Shown here: positions 2,405 through 64,000 of the stretch, in pieces
Layout: each line of letters begins with the position of its first letter
How positions within the stretch are numbered: position 1 is the first letter of the stretch
Source of the DNA: Styela clava
Lineage: Eukaryota > Chordata > Ascidiacea > Stolidobranchia > Styelidae
DNA length: 64,000 bases
NCBI RefSeq assembly: GCF_964204865.1
Contig: NC_135252.1
Location: forward strand, 10,437,383-10,501,382
Direction of reading: 5' to 3'
Position numbers and translations under genes: made by a program
Notes under the pieces: generated by a model
Told to the model about the DNA's origin: nothing
The model's input: only the letters and a program-made list of their open reading frames with translations
Database searches by the model: none

Positions 2405-5400
2405 TCACAATTTCGATTTATTTGCTTCGTCTCGCATCAAACGTCGAAGTATTTTTCCGCTTGCACTTTTCATAATTTTATCACAAAATTCTATTCCTCC
2501 ATGTAGATGCTTGTATTTTGAAAGTTGACCTTCAAACACAATGCAAATTTTGGAAAACTGGAATAGCGTACTTTAACTATGGTTGACCTCTTTAAACTAA
2601 AAAAAATCATCAATGAAAATGCATTACCAAAATCCCAAAATATTACAGATCGCAGCGATCTATACAGATCGCTGGATTTATAATGGGAGCTGATCAACAC
2701 AAAATCGAACTAGATGTATTTGCTGTTGTGCGTGTTACATTTATATTAACTCCTGCTTCCTAGCGAAATCGATATACCTACTCAAGTGTGCAAATCTTTC
2801 AAAGGAATTTTCGACAACCTCATAGCGCGTCGTGTGTGGCTATTTTCATTTATATATGTATATATATATATATATTATGCTTTCCTTTATCGCGTAATAA
2901 TATTATTCAAATTACCTGCGATATGGTTATGAATCTCCTCTTTTGTTAAACTTGGATCGTTTGGGACAACAAATGCTTTTGCAACTTCTCCTGCTTCTAG
3001 ATCGGAAACTCCAATTACTGCTACATCAGCAATTTTAGGATGGGAAATTAAAACTTCTTCCAGTTCAGCCGGGGCAACCTTGTAATGTTAAATCATAATA
3101 AAAAACTGAAAAAAAAAAGCATTTAAGATACAAAGGTTTGTTATTATTTGACGTACAGTCTTGTTACTGGCATTAGCAGCGTGTTGAATCAAGATTTTTT
3201 GTCTGCATTGATCTGCGCTTGACTATAATCAACTATATTTACTGGCAAGTTGCACGTAACTCGCACAACATATCACTCTAAAAACATTACCTGAAATCCT
3301 TTGTATTTTATTAATTCTTTTAATCGGTCAATAACATAAATCATCTCATTGTTGTCAAAATATCCAATATCACCAGTATGAAGCCATCCTTCTGCATCTA
3401 TCGTGTTTGCTGTTGCTGATGAGTTCTTGAAATAGCCTTTCATTACCTGCAAAAACGATGAAGTAAATGAGAGTTTATGTTTTCTATTATTCAGGTTCAT
3501 TTATATTATGAACGGAATGAAGTTTTGAATATAGACATAGAGAGTGAGTGAGGGATATACCAACTATGGCTATGGATTGGATTCAAAAGAAATACGAGCA
3601 TATACATAATAATACCTTTTATTTGACATGCCTTTGAAGTTTCAGAACTCACCCATACCTGTGGACCTTTCACACACAATTCTCCATTCTGATATGGCCC
3701 TACTTCCGCGCCAGTTTCAATGTTGATTATCTACAAATAACAAAAACGAAGTCTTCAAAAACAAATAAAGACCTCAGAGTATTTATTTTTCATTGCAGTA
3801 TTTTTAATGAAAATGTGCACTCTTTTGGTACATATAAATTCTGCCGTACCCAGCGTCACTGACTTTTAATGCAATGGAATAGAGTAACTTTGGTAGATCT
3901 GTATGTACCAAAATTTAGTCAATTGCCGAAATTTATAGTTACCTTAATCTTTGTGTTAGCACAAACACGACCAACGGAGTTATGCGGGGTCATCTGAAAA
4001 TCAGACGCTACAACAGGAACGCACTCTGTCAGTGCCCAACCTAAAAACATCAAGCCCAAAGTTGAAAGGGTTCGATTACTGAAAATTAGTATAAAAAATA
4101 ATAAAGGAAAATATCATTAAAATCAATAAGCACTCCACGGCAATTCGTGTTGGTATATTTTCAGCACTTGGAAAGAAAAACAAGAAATTCGTTATTGTAC
4201 CAATTAATTATAAAAGCCATATTAAACAGTAAAGCTGTCGTTTACATGATTCGCCAGTTTTTGTGCCTTTGAAATGAATATTTACCAATTTATAAAGACA
4301 TCCTAAATGCTCGTTTCTTCGTTAAAAGGAAAGAATATTTAACGAATGTTAGAACTGATTGATCACCTTGTGCAACTTGGCATTTCAGCTTTGTAGACAA
4401 AATTGATGCAACTTCACGTGGTAGAGGAGCAGCTCCACATTTCAATGATAACAAAGATGAAAGGTCGTACTTTTCCAGCAAAGGGGACTTGGCGAACATC
4501 AGAAGCATTGGAGGAACGCCCGAAAATTGTGTTATCTGCAAAATATTGTTATATAATCAATAAATCTGATATTTAAAATAATACAATCTTGATTTTGTAA
4601 TACCTTGTATTTTTCAATAGATTGGAAACACCTTTCTACATTAAATCTGACATCAAGAACGTGTCGTACGCCCTGGTCCAACGTCGCAAAAGATACCATC
4701 AATCCGTAAATATGAAACATGGGAAGAACAGAATATACACTGTCAGGTTTGAATCCCATATTCATTCTAAAATATACAGGCAAGATTGGAGCAAGCAACT
4801 GGGTTAAATGTAGCAATGCATTATGACGTCATTTGTTGCGTTTTACAAGTCTACATTACTTAGAGCTTACTTATGAATTGACAGACACGACACAAAATTA
4901 TAGTGAGTCAGCATTACACCCTTTGGCATTCCGGTTGTTCCACTCGAGTATGGAAGAAACAAGACATCTTCACGTGGATCGATTTGAACATTCCTTGGAA
5001 AGGCTGTAATGGAGCAATTTCAACGCATAAATTAGATTAAATCTGGATTTTTAAAGTTCTTTGTTATATATACTCAATCCATTCAAGGTCAGTGATCCCA
5101 AATTTATTCAATTAACGAAACAGCAAATATTGTCAAAAGTCTTCGTGAATCTACAAAGTAAGATCGGAAATGATGAATTCGGTAGTTATTTAAATTGGGT
5201 AATTTAATTAAAAAATAGGTTGTTTCTGTTTCTAGTAGATTAAAATTGGATATAAAATTTTTTAAATCCAGATGCACGAGCATGCAACGTTCTTGCCTAC
5301 TTTGAATCAAATCCATATCTATGTCTATTTCGAACGTTCGATATCGTTGATTTAAAACCAACAACCAATTTCCTGGGGAATCGCACGTTTAATAGTCGCT

Positions 5401-19800: not shown

Positions 19801-22800
19801 TGCTACAATCTATTGTGACATAAATAAAACTAGCAATTTTTAATAGTTCTGTGGCCCACCTCAAAATATTACTGTGGCCCAGCAATGGGCCATGGCCCAC
19901 TGGTTGAGAACCAGTGGACTAGATTAATTAATTTTATGTTACAGGTAACATCGTTTATGAGCGTTCCTCCTATGCTCATGAAGATAGTGAAATCTTCTCT
20001 CATAAGCAAATATGATTTGTCATCTTTGCGAAACGTTGGTTGTGGTGCTGCTCCATTGCCAATGGACGTGGGCGAATCGGCTAAGAAAAAATTGAACTGC
20101 AATCTTAGCCAGGGTAAATATATGGTATTTCTGTAGTATGTGAACCAAGATGGCGGACACGGGAATGTAGTATGTGTACCAGGTTAGGGTTAGGACATAA
20201 TTTTATTCCAATTTTTCTTATTTTAGTTCTATTGCGAGTTTGGGGAGTAACCAAGAGACTCTCGTACTATTTGTACCTGAAATTATGGCCTAACCCTAAC
20301 CTGCTACACATACTACAATCCGGTGTCCGCCATCTTGGTTCACATACTTCGGGAGTACCAAATATATACCTTCATAAAGCTGATGAAAGCTTTACGAGAT
20401 CAATAGAATAAGTATATTTAACAATATCAAAGTGGATGTAATTGTTTTTTGATTATTTATTGTAAATAATGTTTGGTAAAGAATGTGACATTTGCTCTGT
20501 AAGTCAATCATCACATGCAACTAAAAGTATGAGAGTGAGCTCGCACTTGACATAGGTTCTGAACTACGGGTTAATTTATTGTACCTTATGCTGAAGCAGT
20601 TGGGACAAAAACTTTCTCTTTGTTCAGTGTGCAATCACTTTATCTTTTACGTATTGTCATCAAATTATTACTAGTCTCTTTTTTGTTGCTGTTGTTAATT
20701 TTGCTAATTTGAAAACGTTTGCTATACCAAGTTACAATTTAGCTTTGGTTTTCATATATTAGAGGATTGTTTCATTATTTGTTTTCATATTCCGCACACT
20801 TTCTTTTTAAATATGAAGTTGGAATTGTTTGAATGACAACTCAACAAAACGGAGGATTAGCGATAATATATTGAATGCTAATATATATATTCTGAAGTTT
20901 CCATTGTGTTTAATATTTTACTTTCGACTGCAATGAGTATTATGCGCATACCAACTTGATCTTTCATAACAGGTTGGGGTCTGACGGAGGCTGTACCAGT
21001 TGTGATGACTCATGCATCTTATAGCCCGGTGAATTCAGTTGGAATCGTGTGTGCTAACACGCAACTCAAAGTATATTATTTATTGGTTGTTGTTGTTATT
21101 TCTTGGATAAATATCACTTTTATCATTTGTCGATAGATCGATTGTTTTCACATCCTACCTTTAAAATTCATCTACAATTTTATTGTTCTTTTCGATGAAC
21201 TTTTTTTGGGCTCTTCGATGACTTTATCTTCAATTTAGTTTTTCAAATTGCTTCAAGAAGGGCGTATCGTGGTGTGTGTACATTGGAAACAAAAAGTGGT
21301 CATGTGACTAATTATATAAAGTTTTTACCACACTTCACTATAATATTAATAAATAAATGGACTTTCACTACGTGAATGAGGTAATCAATTCTAGGATTAG
21401 AACAAATTGATAAATTCAAATCTTAAATTATTGCCTTTTATCAAAGCTATGTTGCTCTTTCATGAAAAAAATAATTAAATAGCTTTTTTAAAACACTTTG
21501 TTGTGTATGTTACGAGATGGAATTTTTATTAAATCATATAAAACATCACTTACAGGTAATCGACGTTATTACTGGAAAAGAACTTGGACAAAATGAACAT
21601 GGGGAACTGTGCGTGAAAGGGCCTCAGGTATGTCTAAAATCTGAGTCTATTCAGCGGCTATTTGCTCGAAAACTTGCATTAAAATTAGGAATGATGACAT
21701 ACACTTCATCTGTAATAATTATGCATTTTTATTTTAACGTTTTCTTTGTACGATGAGTTTAATTCGGATTTAATTCTTTTTTTATTTGATTTTTTTCATT
21801 TCAGTATTTTATGGTATTGACGTTGACGACGTGGACAGTAATTATTGTACTATTAATACCATTGTAAAGTTTAAAAAACATTTTTCTGAGATAATTTTTG
21901 GAATTTTCGTATGTTTACAAACAATTTGTTTGGCAATTGCAGTTTATTGTTACTGAAACCATTTAAATATCAGTAACATTAGCGCACAAAGTGCCTCATA
22001 CATAGTTATATTGATCAAATTACCAAAATTGTCATTACCTAGAAATAATAACATTGTATTGTTACATCTCAACTTATTAAAACGAATTTTGCAATTTGAT
22101 TTATATCAATTATCCGTACTTATGAGACGACTGTAAGCAAACTATTATATTAACCATTCACATGTCAAAATAGTGACATCTTTACCGACTTTTTGAATAC
22201 TGACTTTTTGTCTATAATAAGCAGGGCCGGATCATGTCTTTTAGAGGCCCTGAGCACTTGAGACTTTAGTGCCCTATAAATAAAAATAAGCAAACATTTT
22301 TATCATCCCGACAAATATTGAAATTTGGATCGTCTGACCAACTCAGATAATTTTATTAAACACCGATGCACTATTGAAAATTCGTTTAAGAAAATTTCTA
22401 TGGTAAACCCTCAAATTAATTAGGATTGTGTAATTCTACAATTCGACGTTTAGGTCATGAAAGGATATTTCAAGAACCCATCATCAACTGCTGATACAAT
22501 TGATGCGGATGGATGGCTTCATACTGGGGATGTCGGGTACTATGATGACAATGAATTGATTTATATTATTGATCGCATTAAAGAACTGATCAAATATAAA
22601 GGATTTCAGGTGAAACATGTATATTATATATAACAGATAAAATATAATAAATTCAGCTTTCAATTTATAAAAATCGGGCATCTAAAAGCCATTCGTCAAC
22701 TGAAATTCTTTTACAAAAAATTTGTTTTCAAACTGACATTGTTGGCAAAAAATGTAAATTTCATTTTGTATACAGGTTGCCCCTGCTGAATTAGAAGCGA

Positions 22801-43567: not shown

Positions 43568-46500
43568 ATGGCATTACTTGCAGGGAAGCGAAATGGGAAA
43601 ATCTCATTCAAAAATCTTGTAAGATCAATTATCAGAGCCAGTCGATGGAAGATATCAATAGTTGGCGCAAAAGATGGAACAAGTTCTGAAGATTTGGCCA
43701 ACAAAACATGGTTTGAACTTTATATGGTATACTTTACGGCAGTTCTGCTTTATTTGCTAAAGCAAGCAAAATATAATTTGGATGACTATTACGTTTCTAG
43801 TTTTCTTTCATCAAAAGAAGGCTTTATAAAAAAATTCATATTCGCCTTTTTCGTTCAAGGTACGAAGACAAAGACACATTGCATTTTAACGTGAACGCTT
43901 TCAAAGCAGGAAATTCTAGTAACGCTGGATTATCAAAAAGAGCAAAATTTATTCTGATGAAAAATGCGTGGGAAAGAACAGAAGAAGAACTCGAACTCAT
44001 TCATACAGTCGTCGACCAAATGAAGGTTAGTCAAATTTAGTTTGATTTATGGCGTTGTAAGGTTTTAATGTTTCAAACGTCAAAAACAGGTTTATATTTC
44101 AAATTTGGGTGCTCCCGAAGTATTCGTACCAAGATGGCGCACAACCTGAACATAGTATGTGTACCAGCTTAGGGTTTTCAGGTTGTGCGTCATCTGTATA
44201 ATTTGAATTATTAATTCTCGATGATTGCCAGATGTTTCCCTCTTTTCGCTTTTTGCAATGCTTTCCACACACGATATATGAGTAAAATGGTTTCCTTAGC
44301 ATTAAGGTTCGAAGTTAAAGTTACTTTATAGACATAATCAGACCTGATGAATTGAAAAGTTTTATGTTCAATATCTACTTTCATCTTGACCAAAGTTCTA
44401 ATGTATTAAAAAGCAATTGCAGAGGAATAAGTAAACAAATTTTTCCACATTTGATTGGTACTAAGAAATAAAAATGTTCGTTGCTTTCTCATAGAACTAG
44501 TTTGTATTTTCTTCTTTCAGTGTTTTGAAAAATATCCTCCTATGGTACGGCGAGAGCTTACACGCGTGATGCATTTTGAAACATTTGAAGACGGCCGCGT
44601 GATGCTGCAAGAGGGTCATCAAGGATTTTCGATGTATTTTATTGTTGCTGGAAGTGTCATTGTTCAGGTAGTACCAAGCTTTTCTGAGCTTTTCTGGGAC
44701 GAGTTTGATTTGAGAACAGGCCAGGTTTGAAATTTTGCTTAAATTGGCAACAAGAATGACCTTATCAATGGTCTTTTATTAGAGAAAATCAAATAGGCTG
44801 AAAATACATCGTAATCCGTTTCATTGTTTGGGTTATTCCATTATTCAGTAAATGAATAATTTTGGGGTTTAGGCTTGTATTTTCAAGTCGAGTTGAGTTT
44901 CTTAAGCCACTTCTATTTTGGTGTACATTTGCCACGGTTTCTATTCTTAAATTTTACAAAATTCTTCCAAATCGGAAATTCTAATAAAAAAATTAAGGTG
45001 AGCCAAGAAGATGGTCGAACACACGAAAAGAGGACGCAGACGGTTGGTGAAATTTCAGCAGGATCTTCATTTGGAGAATTGGCTCTGATTCAAGATTGCA
45101 CCAGAACAGCAACTATTGTATGTAAAGGTGAATATATTTTTAATATGGGCATGCCATCAAGCATTTTAAACATCCTCGCTAACACTGAATAATGCTTGTG
45201 GAATTGCAATTTTGAATGTTACATTGGAGAGAACACGGTCATTACTGAAGTGGATCATCACCTTACATAGTTCACATACCATCTGGGTGGTAGCAGCTAA
45301 ATTCATAGCCATGCATCTGGGTTTTAAATAAGTAACGTAAATATAGGTTTTTGAATCTTACCAACGAATATTCAAAAAAAAAAACTGTAATCGTACTTGT
45401 AATGTGTAATCCTTTCATTCAGGAACGTCTCAGTTTCTGAGAGTTGATAAACCTGATTTCGACATGGTTTTAAGACGAAGTTACGAGAAGGAATGGGATG
45501 ACCGCCTGCAAGTTCTATTATCAATTCCATTCTTCAAGTAAATAAATTACTGTTAACTTTCTATTCTAATATCCCATAAATAATTTTACCAGAAAAAAGT
45601 TGTATCTTGTATCCGAATTCTAACCCTTGGACAATTGAGGATTTTCAACAAATTTCCACTCAGTAACTTCACTAATTTGCAATATTAGCACATTTACAGC
45701 CTACATTGATTCTTATTTTCATTTGCTCAAAATAAATAATAAAATGTGGTTATCGTGTCCTAGATTTTCCTAGCAATCGCCACGTCTCATCCACCCTTTT
45801 AAGTTTTATAAAAATGTTTTTCTCGATAAATCTCGAATTAAGTAAAACAAATTATTTACCAGGCAATGGAACGATTTCGATATGAGAAATTTGAACTTGA
45901 ACTGTAGAATTGAAGAATTTTCGTCAGGTTCTGTTATTGTTGGAAATACGAGTGAAGTTTCAGAAAACGTATACTTCGTCGTGTTTGGAGTTTGCAAATT
46001 GATCAGAGTTAGTATATGATTCATTATATCATAAGTTAACGATATAGTTTTCAATCTGTTGTGAAACAAAATTTGGCCGTAGCATAAGCTCTCTTACGTC
46101 TGAATGCATGCTTATTACTAGCGTCGATTGCGGTAAATGTATAAAATAAGCAATTATTGATATCGGTCGAAATAGTATAAAAACATGATATATGTATATA
46201 TGATTCAAACACTAATGCATTTGTAATGGGCATGAAATATTTCATAAATGATTTCGATTGAGTCTGTTGTAAAAGCAGTTAATCTAATAATAAATGTAGC
46301 GCACTTACCAATTTATTTCTAGCAACTGCCTTTATGATCTCGTGAAGATAAAATACCTCGCCATTGGGTTTTTCCAGAAATTATCTTCCGCATCTCTATA
46401 TTTAAAACCAGTTATGCTTTATGGCTTCGGGACTCTAATGCGGTTCTTGAAACTCAATATATTTTGATATAATACCAACCTACTGCTAAAAATTAAAATA

Positions 46501-51944: not shown

Positions 51945-54900
51945 ATGACAAAAGATAATAAAATATCCAAAGAAGTGCTATTTTTAGACGCGGCGGAATC
52001 TATTTTGAGCGTCCAGCCAAATTTAGATCGCGTTGAATCTAATTTTGTTCACCTCATATCACGTGTCGATCAACATCAATGTCATTTGCCATGTTTTTAT
52101 TATGAAAATGCGATTATAAAATGTAAAATGTTGTCTTCTCTCGACCTTAGTAAGAAGTATATAAAAGTCCCACTCTTGTTGAAACGGGCTTTATTTGCGA
52201 CAACCCCTTGCGATATTGGTATCTGTATTCTTTCTAAAGTTGAAGTACATATGTGTATGCTTCTATATTTGAATCAAGGAGTGAAACTTCTCTGGATAGA
52301 ATGTTATCAAGTTTGGAAGCATCGAGCAACAATATTTCGTCGATTCCCATGAACTATACTGGGTCTATGAGTGCACTACTTTTCGATGACTCGATGGAGA
52401 AAATGGACGTCGACAAAACGTCCTCAGATGTAACGAGGTATCTAGAAGAATACATTGAGTCCAGTTTTAATTTTGCAGAAACGACTTCTTCCTTTTCAGC
52501 AAGCCCCTGTTCAGATCACACTTCTGTATCAAGAACGTCGTCAGATGAAGGTAGTTCAAATAAAATGACGCCAAGTTATACAGTATCAACATGTTCGGAT
52601 GTTTTTTCGCCAACTGATTCTAAAGACTGTAATTTCCAGCTGAACAACATGATTAACACTAGTACAGATGAGTTCCCGTATGAGGACGTTCTCTCATTAG
52701 AAAATGCGCTCGAGGAAGCCGTTGGAGATTCGTTGGAAAATGTTGGTAGCGTGAAAAGTGAATCGAACATGATTCAAAATTTATCGTCTCATACATCAAT
52801 AAGCGGGCAAAATTTTACGATGCCACAACCACCTAACTCAAACCCGCCTATAAGTAATGCGTTTCCAAAAGTATCTCACCGAGTAGTAATCAGTCCGACT
52901 ACAACATTAGTTCTGTCCGATGACGTTATGCGTAAGAAACATCGCCCTCTTTCAACTAACAGCAAATCGACCTCTAAAATAGTGACATCAACCAGCAATC
53001 AACTACATCCTTCCATGGTGCAAAACAGGCCAATTTCATCGAGTTCTGGAAAAATCTCACCCGTAGCAATCAATGTAGGAAGTAACGATCATGCAATAAC
53101 TTCACTTCATTCGATGACGGCAAGCAACCAGAGCCCTCAGTCTGTGGAAACTTCTGACCATTTGGTAAGATGAATACATATAAGATATTGTGATCTTCCA
53201 CCAACCAGTGTTGAACTTAATTAGATAGAGTAGTGAGTGTCAATTTTGTTTAGATCTGAACACGTTCAGGCAACAATAACATCTATTCAAACATACCATA
53301 TTGCAGTTAGCAGAACAAGACGATCAGCAGAATGACGAGAATGTTGAGTGGTCTACCCCAAGGAAAAGCATCCAAGCAATACAAAAGAATCCACTTCCAC
53401 CTGAAGGTTATAAGATAACAAGATATCCATTGAAAAGTCAGACGGATAATAGAGAAGAAAACGTATGTTCAGCAATATTTCACCTTCGATATAATAAAGC
53501 TTGTATTATTGAAAAATCCATCCAAATATAATCAATGGTGATCTATTATTGTACTATTATGAGATAATTATTTTAAATCTTGACAAATTGCATTTGATTC
53601 GATTAGGTATATAAGGTTTGTGTTACCAAATAGTACTTGGAAGTATTAATATGATTATATTTATTTAGACCTGAGTACGAATTATATAACAGTTCTCCCC
53701 CTTTCGAAACCGGTTTTATTCGCGACACTACCTTGCTATACTGATATCTGTATAATTAATTACCAATGTTGAATTACATGCTTCTATATTTGATTCAAGA
53801 AGTCCCGAAAGAATGTTCTTAAGTTTGGAAGCATCGAGTAGCAATATTCTGTCGATTTCCCTCAACTATAATGGTTGTATGAATGCACTATACTTCTCGA
53901 AGTCTTGTCCAAACATTTGAAATTAATTACATCTGCAACATGCTATGGACATTTGTATGAAATAGTATTACATTTAGAAAATACAAGATGAAACGACTGA
54001 TATCATAAATGAACTACGACATCAGCTTCAAAGGGCCAGGATGGAGGTTGATCATCGTCTGAAAGAAGTTGAAGAATGGAGATTATCTGCTCAACAAATA
54101 TTTGATGCAGCAAGAAAAATTCGGGCTCAAATGGAATTAGAAAAGGTATTGGAAATTTGTCCCAGCCTTGGCATAACGAATTTTTGCATTTGGTAATTGG
54201 CCAAATATAAATTTCTATTTGGAAGCGTTGTTCAAAAAGATTGCTATTGTGAGATTTATATAAATTATCTGTCCACCATTGTAAAAATCACAAGCATTTT
54301 TCCCGGCACAAAAACTGATAATTTAGATATGAGGGACGAAAAAAAGCAAACAACAAGTATAATGACAAAAATATTCTTGCAATCATTTTAACGTTTTAAA
54401 AATATTTTCTAAATCAATTATGCAAGCATTTGTCCCATAACTCAACATTTTGCAAAGTGCATACAATAAATTGCATTTTATATATTTTAATGTTGCGCAA
54501 AAGTATTTACAAATAAAACAAATTAATTTCAAAGTATAAAACTTTGTGTGCAATTTAAATTTTCAAGATATCCGCCATTTTGTTTTTCCCAGTGAAGTCT
54601 ATAAAAATAGCAACAATCTAAAAATAAAATCAAGTTTAAAATTAGATTAATCCGAAAGGTATCGCAAACTTGATGAACTCTATTGCTTCATCGTAAAAAT
54701 GGTTGTGAAATACCGCGTGTCGTTAATCATCGAGCTCAGATGTAAAATACCCTGGAGCATATTTTCGTTCGTCGTCACAAAAACTAGAGAATGTTTGAGC
54801 AAAACTTTCTGATGACGATTGTTTTTTATGAAAATGTTGACGAAATACAAACTCTTAGCTAAGTTCAAAATTTTAGCGACAAACACAAATTAAAAATGAT

Positions 54901-60618: not shown

Positions 60619-63074
60619 AAGTCTGAGTGAAAACAAGTCGAAAGACTAAAACGTCTTAAATTTGAAAACTAATAATTTTCAACAAAGCGAATCAGAAATG
60701 AAGACAATGCAGAATCGCCAAATAACAATCAATTCCCATGCCTTTGTGGTTTGAAAATTGGCCTTGCAATTTTATTGTACGTTGTTACAGTCGGCATGTA
60801 ATCCAGTTAGGTTAAGGTGTATAATTTGCTTTTAATACAGACGAAATCACATCCACACCATGCGAACAAATGTATGGCTTTCAGCTTTTCGAGATTTCAG
60901 CGGGGTTGAAATATACCGTCACCTCAATTGACTATTAATTGGTCCAGCCGGAAATTGAAGATTCATACTCGGAGGTTAGCCGTATTGTTTGAAATATGAC
61001 AAAAAATTACCACATACATTACCTTATACAATGCAAATAAAATAAATTTAACGTAGTTGGAATGATTGAGTTGTTCCAACTCTGAATTATTTGAAAAAAT
61101 TGATAACCATATTAGCAGCACCGACCATGCTGGAAGGGATTAGTTGATTTGTATCGGCGATATGTCACGGTCCTATCGCTGTTGTGACGCATCTTGCGCG
61201 GTCTTCTGATTGATTTTTGAAGGAGAATATACGCAAACTCAACATTTTTTTAAGCTCAAGCGGATCCAATTTATTATATAAGTGCTTCCAGTGGGGGTAA
61301 TAACATCAGCCGAGGAGAAGCCTCCGTACTACGCACTTGGAAAAAAAATTGTAGATATATTATATATACATGTATTGTCTGTATTGCCTGGGTTGCAGTA
61401 TTGCGATATGTTTTCTAATTTTTTAATGGAAAGGGAGTCCTTGAAGGTTTTGTATAGAAAGCTTATGCTCTAATTAAAATTTAAAACAGTAAAAATTCCC
61501 GTACAATAAAAAAGTGAGATTGTGTTCGCCAAGAGATTAGATTTGTATTTTAGTCACAGTTTTAAAGAATGTACTAAGGAGCGATCTCATAATTAGTGAG
61601 TGCCTATTATTTTCATTCCGCACCTGCATATTCGAATATTACAACTTTTTCCAGTACGGCTGGACTCTTTAATTATTGTTTTATTTTTACATGTAAATAC
61701 ATTTATTCATAAGGGGGTTTGAAAATAGGAAATTTGATTAGAATGCATTTCATTCATATATGTTATTACACGCATTAAGCAGATTTTACTTTTGGGAATA
61801 TAATCCTGAAACCGACATATTGAAATCGAACTTTAATGAAATGAGGAAATGTTAATCGCTATTAAATACTGGAGTAGAGAACAAAGCCACGGGCACTGTC
61901 ATTAAATATATATATATATATGGTTGCAATTTCTGGACTTCCATATTGGAATGTTGCTCTTCCAATATAAAGCGACGTTCAAATTCTAGTCAAACTTGAG
62001 TTAAAGATATTCGGGAGTGCGCAAATCAGGTTTTTTAAAAGTGCTTGCTATCGTGCTGAACATTTGCTTTGCTAATACCAGCAGGGTTTTTAAACTTGAA
62101 GGTGGAACTGACACCAGTTTTCACTATAGGCAAGACAGAGTAGTTTTGCATTTTCGGTTACAAATAAATATTTATTTGGCCGTTTTCAATCTTTTTTTCG
62201 GTCATCGCGATTTAGTTGGAAATACTGAATCCTAAAGTTGCTATTGCATGTGCTTCCATACATTTGTCTCTGACAGTGCACAAGACATTAGAATGTCACA
62301 AAACATGGTAGTATCGAAATCATTCGCCGGATGCAAAAGTACGAGATAAATTGATCCGTTTTTTTAATTAGCAATTCGGACATTTATATAATTATATCTA
62401 AAATTAACTTGAACCGATCGCATACATTTTCGTAGATATAAATAAATAAGCTTTCGCAGTTCTCATGCTGATGTGCAAGCTTGGTGTATGCAATTTTTAT
62501 TATTAACTTATGCTTATTCCAATATGTTATCGGAAATCGTTGATTACAAAAGCAGGGAGTAAAGCACGCATTCATTCTAACACCAGTTTCATAAAATATT
62601 TTGTTTGATCGATTCTTAACATATCTCGATTGTGTGCTATAATTTTATAACATACGATAATGCAGCCGTAATTTGTAGTTGAGGTGAGTATATTTAGCAT
62701 AATATAGAGCGCTGTATTTAAAGTCAATATATATATTCTCTCGCAGCTGCGAATAATGTGCCTTTAGTTGTAGTAAATCTCCCTGTATTTGCGAATTATT
62801 CATACACCTGTTAAACATTATGTAAATATATTGAGAACAAACCCCGCGCGAACGCATAAGCTGGCACTTAACACAGGTTGTAACATAATTATCCGACAAC
62901 AGTGATTGGTAGACAATATGATGTGGTGGTATATTCGACATTGCTGAAACTGATTTTAGACAAACGTTTTTATTAAAATCTTTCTGGTAAAAACGGTTTG
63001 GAGATTTACATTCGTTTTACACATACTTGTTATTGTTATTTTCAGATTTTTAATAGATCAGTATTGTACAGTTT

Positions 63075-63611
63075 ATGAGAAACAGAAATATGACAAAAAC
63101 ACTGTTATTGTTTTTGGTTTTGTTTGGACTGGAATATTTCGTTGATTCGAAAAGTATTGTGAGTGATGATGAAGCAGCTGCAGAGAGCGACATCGAAAAA
63201 AGGCAGCATTGGTCATATGGGTTTGCGCCAGGCGGTAAAAGAAGCTTTCCCCAAATCGCTGAACGTCAACACTGGTCATATGGATTTGCTCCGGGTGGTA
63301 AACGAGAAGAAATACCCACAGACGTAGAAAAGAGGCAACATTGGTCGTATGGATTTGCACCAGGAGGAAAAAGAGAATTCAAGGACATGCCTAATATGCC
63401 TGAACTTAGTGAATTTGAAAAAAGACAACACTGGTCTTACGGTTTTGCTCCTGGTGGAAAGAGAGAATTTAACGATCAGAAAAGAACAGCTTGGCCCGTA
63501 GATATCCCGTTAAATGCTGAAGAAAAACGAAGTGTCTGGAATTATGGATGGGCTCCAAACGCAGAAAGAGAAATTGACCCAGGATATTTTATTCGACAAT
63601 TGCTAATCGCG
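63075..63611 (+). CDS. gnrh: Multi-copy GnRH precursor, first coding exon (3' end outside window)
   Basis: Secreted prohormone. Exon from an acceptor at 63045/63046 with ATG at 63075 (a second in-frame ATG is at 63090); the donor GCG/GTAAGT ends coding at 63611, and the remaining exons lie beyond or near the window edge. Hydrophobic residues 8-22 form the signal peptide. Four identical decapeptides QHWSYGFAPG occur at residues 44-53, 65-74, 88-97 and 118-127, each followed by GKR, which gives cleavage and C-terminal amidation. N-terminal Gln should cyclise to pyroglutamate. Copies 1, 3 and 4 are preceded by KR, copy 2 by ER only. A fifth degenerate unit, SVWNYGWAPN (153-162), lacks the amidation glycine. 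GnRH peptides act on class-A G-protein-coupled receptors to control reproduction; several copies per precursor is a tunicate trait. The frame continues open to 63773, but this is read into the intron. Confidence 0.92.
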
Positions 63612-64000
63612 GTAAGTTCAGACACAAAAATAATCAGAAAGAAATTTAGAAGTCTATCAGAGATTTTCGATTGGGCTATTTTATCTCTACTCGGGCAAAA
63701 ACAGATAGCCCTTCACCCCACCACGGTCATTTTAATCCTTTCCTACGCGTTAATTCTCCGAATCGAAATTTAGTATCAGACACAATCCCATTGTTAACCA
63801 TATTGTAAAGATAAATTTGCAAAGTTTCGAAAAATCATTTCTCAACTACTACTGAAATGATGTTTATTACTTCCATTAGAGAGAGTGAGAGATTTTTTAC
63901 TTCGTCAACCAAAAGAAATTAACAGTCATCGTAATAATAAAAATAATAGCAATAAATTAATTTGATATAAACAGGAAGGAGTGATACGACCGGGCGGTCA
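63612..64000 (+). other. Start of the intron after the GnRH peptide exon
   Basis: It begins with a strong donor GTAAGT at 63612. No acceptor followed by coding sequence is recognisable before the window ends, so the next exon is probably outside. Confidence 0.6.

Follow-up and report, generated by a model that had tools for sequence, protein, structure and literature searches.

Positions 63075..63611 on the forward strand of the window, the 64,000-nucleotide stretch of DNA analysed here, are with high confidence interpreted as a coding exon from a gene for an ascidian GnRH precursor, and this gene is real and very probably functional. The sequence itself, the copies of the peptide it encodes, the constraint acting on these copies, the family match and the GnRH-receptor-like exons that the genome contains are all observed directly. 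A second, diverged precursor with Thr at position 4 of every unit lies on the same contig, and this sister gene is the more unusual of the two results.

Architecture and predicted processing of the precursor exon

The exon comprises 179 codons in an open frame, beginning with an ATG at 63075, containing no stop through 63611 and followed by GTAAGT from 63612. Its translation matches the Pfam GnRH family (PF00446) with 57 bits (E 1.1e-15) against a cut-off of 18.5, while each of the three remaining Pfam rows for the protein falls under its own cut-off; a phmmer comparison of the precursor with the PDB returned no match up to E 1. The precursor is laid out from a basic start through a hydrophobic stretch and an acidic spacer to four repeat units QHWSYGFAPGGKR. 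The putative signal peptide MRNRNMTKTLLLFLVLFGLEYFVDS (63075..63149, +), delimited by hydropathy with a presumed cleavage site, contains the stretch LLLFLVLFGL and reaches a 10-residue hydropathy peak of 3.2 over residues 10-19. The Pfam score, the hydrophobic leader, the processing sites and the amidation Gly together bear out the preliminary description, which had named this region a GnRH precursor.

At its 3′ boundary the exon ends in a likely 5′ splice donor, GCG/GTAAGT, in phase 0 (63612..63617, +), identified by consensus scan and by the frame; were this donor left unused, the frame would continue to a stop at 63771-63773. A strictly filtered scan of approximately 10 kb downstream for a phase-0 3′ exon gave a single, unconvincing 12-residue candidate. 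On the opposite side, a consensus scan marks a possible 3′ splice or spliced-leader acceptor site, TTATTTTCAG (63036..63045, +), which ends 29 bases 5′ of the precursor ATG. According to the portions of PMC3407064 available, the gnrh genes of Ciona have noncoding exons, and two of its GnRH receptor cDNAs carry a spliced leader; the acceptor-like sequence would fit either arrangement.

By analogy with the rest of the family, the leader would send the precursor into the secretory pathway, where prohormone convertases would cut at the KR sites and once at a single Arg. A carboxypeptidase would then trim the KR, the exposed Gly would be converted into a C-terminal amide and the N-terminal Gln would cyclise, and each precursor would yield four copies of one decapeptide, pGlu-HWSYGFAPG-NH2. 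This decapeptide is predicted to act on GnRH-type receptors as a neuropeptide, with receptor activation and physiology extrapolated from other family members. In Ciona, peptides of the GnRH type are also linked to the larval nervous system. Ascidians have no hypothalamus or pituitary according to the accessible text of PMC7697785, and Ciona tGnRHs are linked to gamete release and metamorphosis in the excerpts available from PMC7697785 and PMC12176390.

Repeat units and their constraint

The four units, each of 33 nucleotides and reading QHWSYGFAPG plus the amidation Gly, occupy 63204..63236, 63267..63299, 63336..63368 and 63426..63458 on the forward strand. Units 1, 3 and 4 carry KR on both sides, and unit 2 is preceded by ER, a single Arg in place of a dibasic site, and followed by KR. 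In all four, Gln1 follows a basic cleavage site from which it is able to form pGlu, His2-Trp3-Ser4 and Pro9-Gly10 are present, and the Gly amidation donor is succeeded by KR. With four intact units the precursor is multi-copy, which is the rule in ascidians according to the sections of PMC7697785 available. The spacers between the units are short and differ in sequence.

Beyond the intact units, the end of the precursor contains a decayed unit, SVWNYGWAPNAER (63531..63569, +), in which the pGlu-forming Gln, the Gly needed for amidation and the terminal dibasic site are all missing. It is preceded by KR, followed by a single Arg and retains five residues of the intact unit (W, Y, G, A and P); its BLOSUM62 score against that unit is 40, and when the non-unit residues were shuffled 5000 times no shuffle scored as high. 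That SVWNYGWAPNAER is instead a working, non-amidated peptide with a modulator-like role of its own appears improbable: the KR before it, the five kept residues and a similarity far above that of the shuffles would suit such a role, but Gln1 and the Gly donor are missing and only a single Arg stands after it. Immediately upstream, TAWPVDIPLNAEEKR (63486..63530, +) is a possible further decayed unit that shares 4 of 12 residues with the unit after it; its score is matched by 155 of 5000 shuffles, so that it may, as a faint indication, represent another relic.

Constraint on the intact units is visible at the nucleotide level. Only 9 of the 33 nucleotide columns vary among the four units, all of them third positions, and any pair of units differs at 5 to 9 of 33 nucleotides, always synonymously. 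By hand count, at least 14 nucleotide changes are needed among the four units, all silent; without constraint, 14 silent changes out of 14 would have a probability of 7e-10 at a silent chance of 22/99 per change, or 6e-8 when transitions only are counted (10/33). Because all nine variable columns are third positions, the peptide is under purifying selection. Both earlier statements on this point, that four identical peptides are encoded by different synonymous codons and that this reflects selection on the peptide and not a recent copying event, therefore agree with the synonymous nature of every difference.

The same observations bear on a pseudogene or silent relic as the nature of the exon, a reading that is very improbable. 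The decay of one, perhaps two, terminal units and the failure to find a 3′ exon in the approximately 10 kb downstream would be expected of such a relic; against it, four units have stayed identical through those 14 or more silent changes, and 179 codons have remained free of stops with their processing sites intact. Recent duplication or gene conversion as the source of the identity, suggested by complete amino acid agreement across the 13 residues QHWSYGFAPGGKR, is ruled out by the codon differences between any two units, with the dissimilar spacers and the lack of a detected tandem array pointing the same way. Tandem Repeats Finder reported no array over 62000-64000, as expected from the divergence of codons and spacers.

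The unit array is also set apart from chance by a genome-wide motif search. The strict DNA motif, Q-H-W, a position admitting S/T and a few other codons, four free positions, P-G-G and a final position open to K/R and a few other codons, has 7 sites in the 376.6 Mb assembly, of which 4 fall in the precursor exon and 3 in a single further exon. With the pattern reversed as a control, neither strand of the same assembly gave a site, and the unit array is accordingly not a product of chance. A relaxed motif, lacking the final Gly and basic position, added 3 sites with TGC (Cys) at position 4, two on contig C6 and one on C17; as GnRH units these three were rejected and read as chance, the control giving 7.

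A Thr4 precursor, receptor-like exons and the genomic setting

A protein search with the whole precursor identified one further place in the genome, C3:10043475-10043753, which lies outside the window, 457 kb upstream of the first gene, and shares its contig and strand. The corresponding second precursor frame (L004:1201-1686; located by the reverse search at L004:1204-1686, C3:10043322-10043801) is supported by protein search in both directions, and the reverse search returned only the two GnRH genes, in four matches. The frame begins with a hydrophobic leader, and an acceptor-like AG ending at L004:1182 lies 21 bases 5′ of its ATG. Its three units read QHWTTGIGPG-G-KR, QHWTSGLAPG-G-R and QHWTTGLSPG-G-KR, the middle one bearing a single Arg on both sides. 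Compared pairwise, these units differ at 2 or 3 of 11 residues and at 7 to 10 of 33 nucleotides, 5 to 7 of which are third positions.

The Pfam GnRH model accepts the second precursor narrowly, with 20.9 bits against the cut-off of 18.5. All three units carry Thr4 and depart from the ascidian pQHWS start; the ascidian GnRHs tabulated in the available part of the review PMC7697785 all keep pGlu1-His2-Trp3-Ser4. Since Thr4 occupies 3 of 3 units and the Pfam score nevertheless stays above the cut-off, the second precursor is a diverged relative, distinct from a standard tGnRH. A search of an open-access paper library did not find the Thr4 peptides, its single hit being, by title, an unrelated paper on a T-cell receptor. 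Both precursors place SF after the KR of the first unit and EF after the KR of the last, and these shared residues, together with the repeat structure and the linkage, faintly suggest an old local duplication.

Candidate receptors are likewise encoded in the genome. With the human GnRH receptor as query, 5 of 25 scored candidates matched. Two of them lie on C18, separated by 18.5 kb and on opposite strands; C97 and C17 hold one each, and the fifth match, on C8, is weak and interrupted by six stops. For the exon peptides from L014, L015 and L016/L017, the human GnRH receptor is the best PDB match in all three tested (E 1e-9 to 4e-8), a result partly expected because the same receptor had served as the query that selected these exons; the next matches, to oxytocin, adrenergic or vasopressin receptors, stand at about 1e-3. 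Pfam recognition is weak: L015 matches 7tm_1 at a score under the cut-off, L014 returns no family, and the match of L017, likewise below cut-off, is an unrelated one. The C97 (L016) and C17 (L017) exons are nearly identical and encode an identical 39-residue stretch; they may represent a single locus present twice in the assembly, perhaps through haplotype duplication. In Ciona, 3 of the 4 GnRH receptor genes are clustered, according to the portion of PMC3407064 at hand.

Taken with these receptor-like exons, the two linked precursors may have parted ways, one supplying a single vertebrate-like decapeptide in four copies and the other three Thr4 peptides (pQHWTTGIGPGa, pQHWTSGLAPGa and pQHWTTGLSPGa), the two genes serving different receptors among the several GnRH-receptor-like ones; this reading is tentative, its chances falling slightly below even.

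The wider genome looks like that of a tunicate. A glycosyl hydrolase 6 (GH6) exon on C9 follows a cellulose-synthase-like exon by 1.8 kb on the same strand (L019:6233-9171), and the latter passes the cut-offs of both the glycosyltransferase family 2 and the cellulose synthase models. The joining of a GH6 part to a cellulose synthase is characteristic of tunicates. A search for COX1 gave no match in the assembly.

Within the window, nine other frames were scanned in Pfam, and only 19834-20133 (+) exceeded a cut-off, that of the AMP-binding family (PF00501). AMP-binding-like fragments below cut-off occur at 4535-4828 (-) and 21475-21753 (+), and the fragments on both strands perhaps represent an acyl-CoA-ligase-like gene cluster. 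Similarity to cyclic-nucleotide-binding domains, also below cut-off, is found at 44455-44727 (+) and 44860-45189 (+); one Glrx-like and one DUF2112 match remained below cut-off, and three frames gave no match. Near the GnRH gene, open frames of 309 residues at 52244-53170 (+) and 305 residues at L001:8720-9634 (-) have no Pfam family over cut-off. Eight further frames, seven in the window and one in L001, returned no Pfam family, and in the window neither a tRNA nor an Rfam family reaching its gathering score was found.

Comparison with known GnRHs

QHWSYGFAPG was compared by residue identity with 14 known GnRH peptides. It agrees at 9 of 10 residues with Halocynthia roretzi tGnRH-10 and -11, at 8 of 10 with human GnRH1, GnRH3 and tGnRH-3, and at 6 or 7 of 10 with the other nine. 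As the preliminary description had stated, the peptide departs from vertebrate GnRH1 (pQHWSYGLRPGa) only at positions 7 and 8, with Phe7-Ala8 in place of Leu7-Arg8, and shares with it pGlu1-His2-Trp3-Ser4-Tyr5-Gly6 and Pro9-Gly10-amide. Vertebrate precursors, in contrast to this one, are single-copy according to the accessible text of PMC7697785. The further statement, that most Ciona peptides lie farther from vertebrate GnRH than this one does, is true but weak: among C. intestinalis tGnRH-3 to -8, tGnRH-7 equals it with 8 of 10 residues of human GnRH1 and the other five reach 7. Because tGnRH-7 and H. roretzi tGnRH-10 and -11 are equally near human GnRH1, each at 8 of 10, the decapeptide is not exceptional in its nearness to vertebrate GnRH. 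The single Arg before unit 2, the decayed unit and the one-residue neighbours in H. roretzi are features that the preliminary description did not contain.

The original paper on the H. roretzi GnRHs is reportedly that of Hasunuma and Terakado in 2013. The two H. roretzi peptides, tGnRH-10 (pQHWSYGFSPGa) and tGnRH-11 (pQHWSYGFLPGa), come from one ascidian gene, as given in the part of PMC7697785 available. They carry Ser or Leu at position 8 where the present peptide has Ala, and in that account two kinds of peptide stand against four identical units here.

Ciona intestinalis likewise has two multi-copy precursor genes in its genome, Ci-gnrh1 (tGnRH-3, -5 and -6) and Ci-gnrh2 (tGnRH-4, -7 and -8), according to the same portions of PMC7697785. 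Each Ciona gene described there encodes three different Ser4 peptides, whereas the first gene here holds the same peptide four times over and the second encodes Thr4 peptides. Four identical copies of one peptide are thus unlike the Ciona and Halocynthia genes covered in the available review text, a comparison that extends to those few genes. At position 7, that text gives an aromatic residue in the Ci-gnrh1 peptides and Leu in those of Ci-gnrh2; the first gene here has Phe7 and the second Ile7 or Leu7. Judged by position 7 of these very short peptides, the first gene would resemble Ci-gnrh1 and the H. roretzi peptides, and the second Ci-gnrh2. Ci-GnRH-X, a 16-residue partial antagonist, has in common the pQHWS start and Pro9-Gly10; no such longer form was seen here, the relaxed motif recovering only the seven units and the three Cys4 sites.

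A separate discrepancy concerns t-GnRH-1, which appears with the mammalian sequence pQHWSYGLRPGa in Table 1 of PMC5592718 and as pQHWSDYFKPGa in PMC7697785, as far as the available parts of these reviews go; a misprint in PMC5592718 is the probable cause.

The decapeptide QHWSYGFAPG did not turn up in the open-access library of papers that was searched. As far as this search reaches, the gene is new in sequence and an ordinary member of its family. It adds to that family a decapeptide one residue removed from the H. roretzi GnRHs and provides another ascidian case in which the Tyr5-Gly6 common to vertebrate GnRH1 and GnRH3 is kept. The Thr4 gene is a natural case for testing which changes at position 4 a GnRH receptor still answers, and the linked pair one for testing the origin of the two classes, a test of whether the two ascidian precursor classes stem from local duplication on one chromosome.
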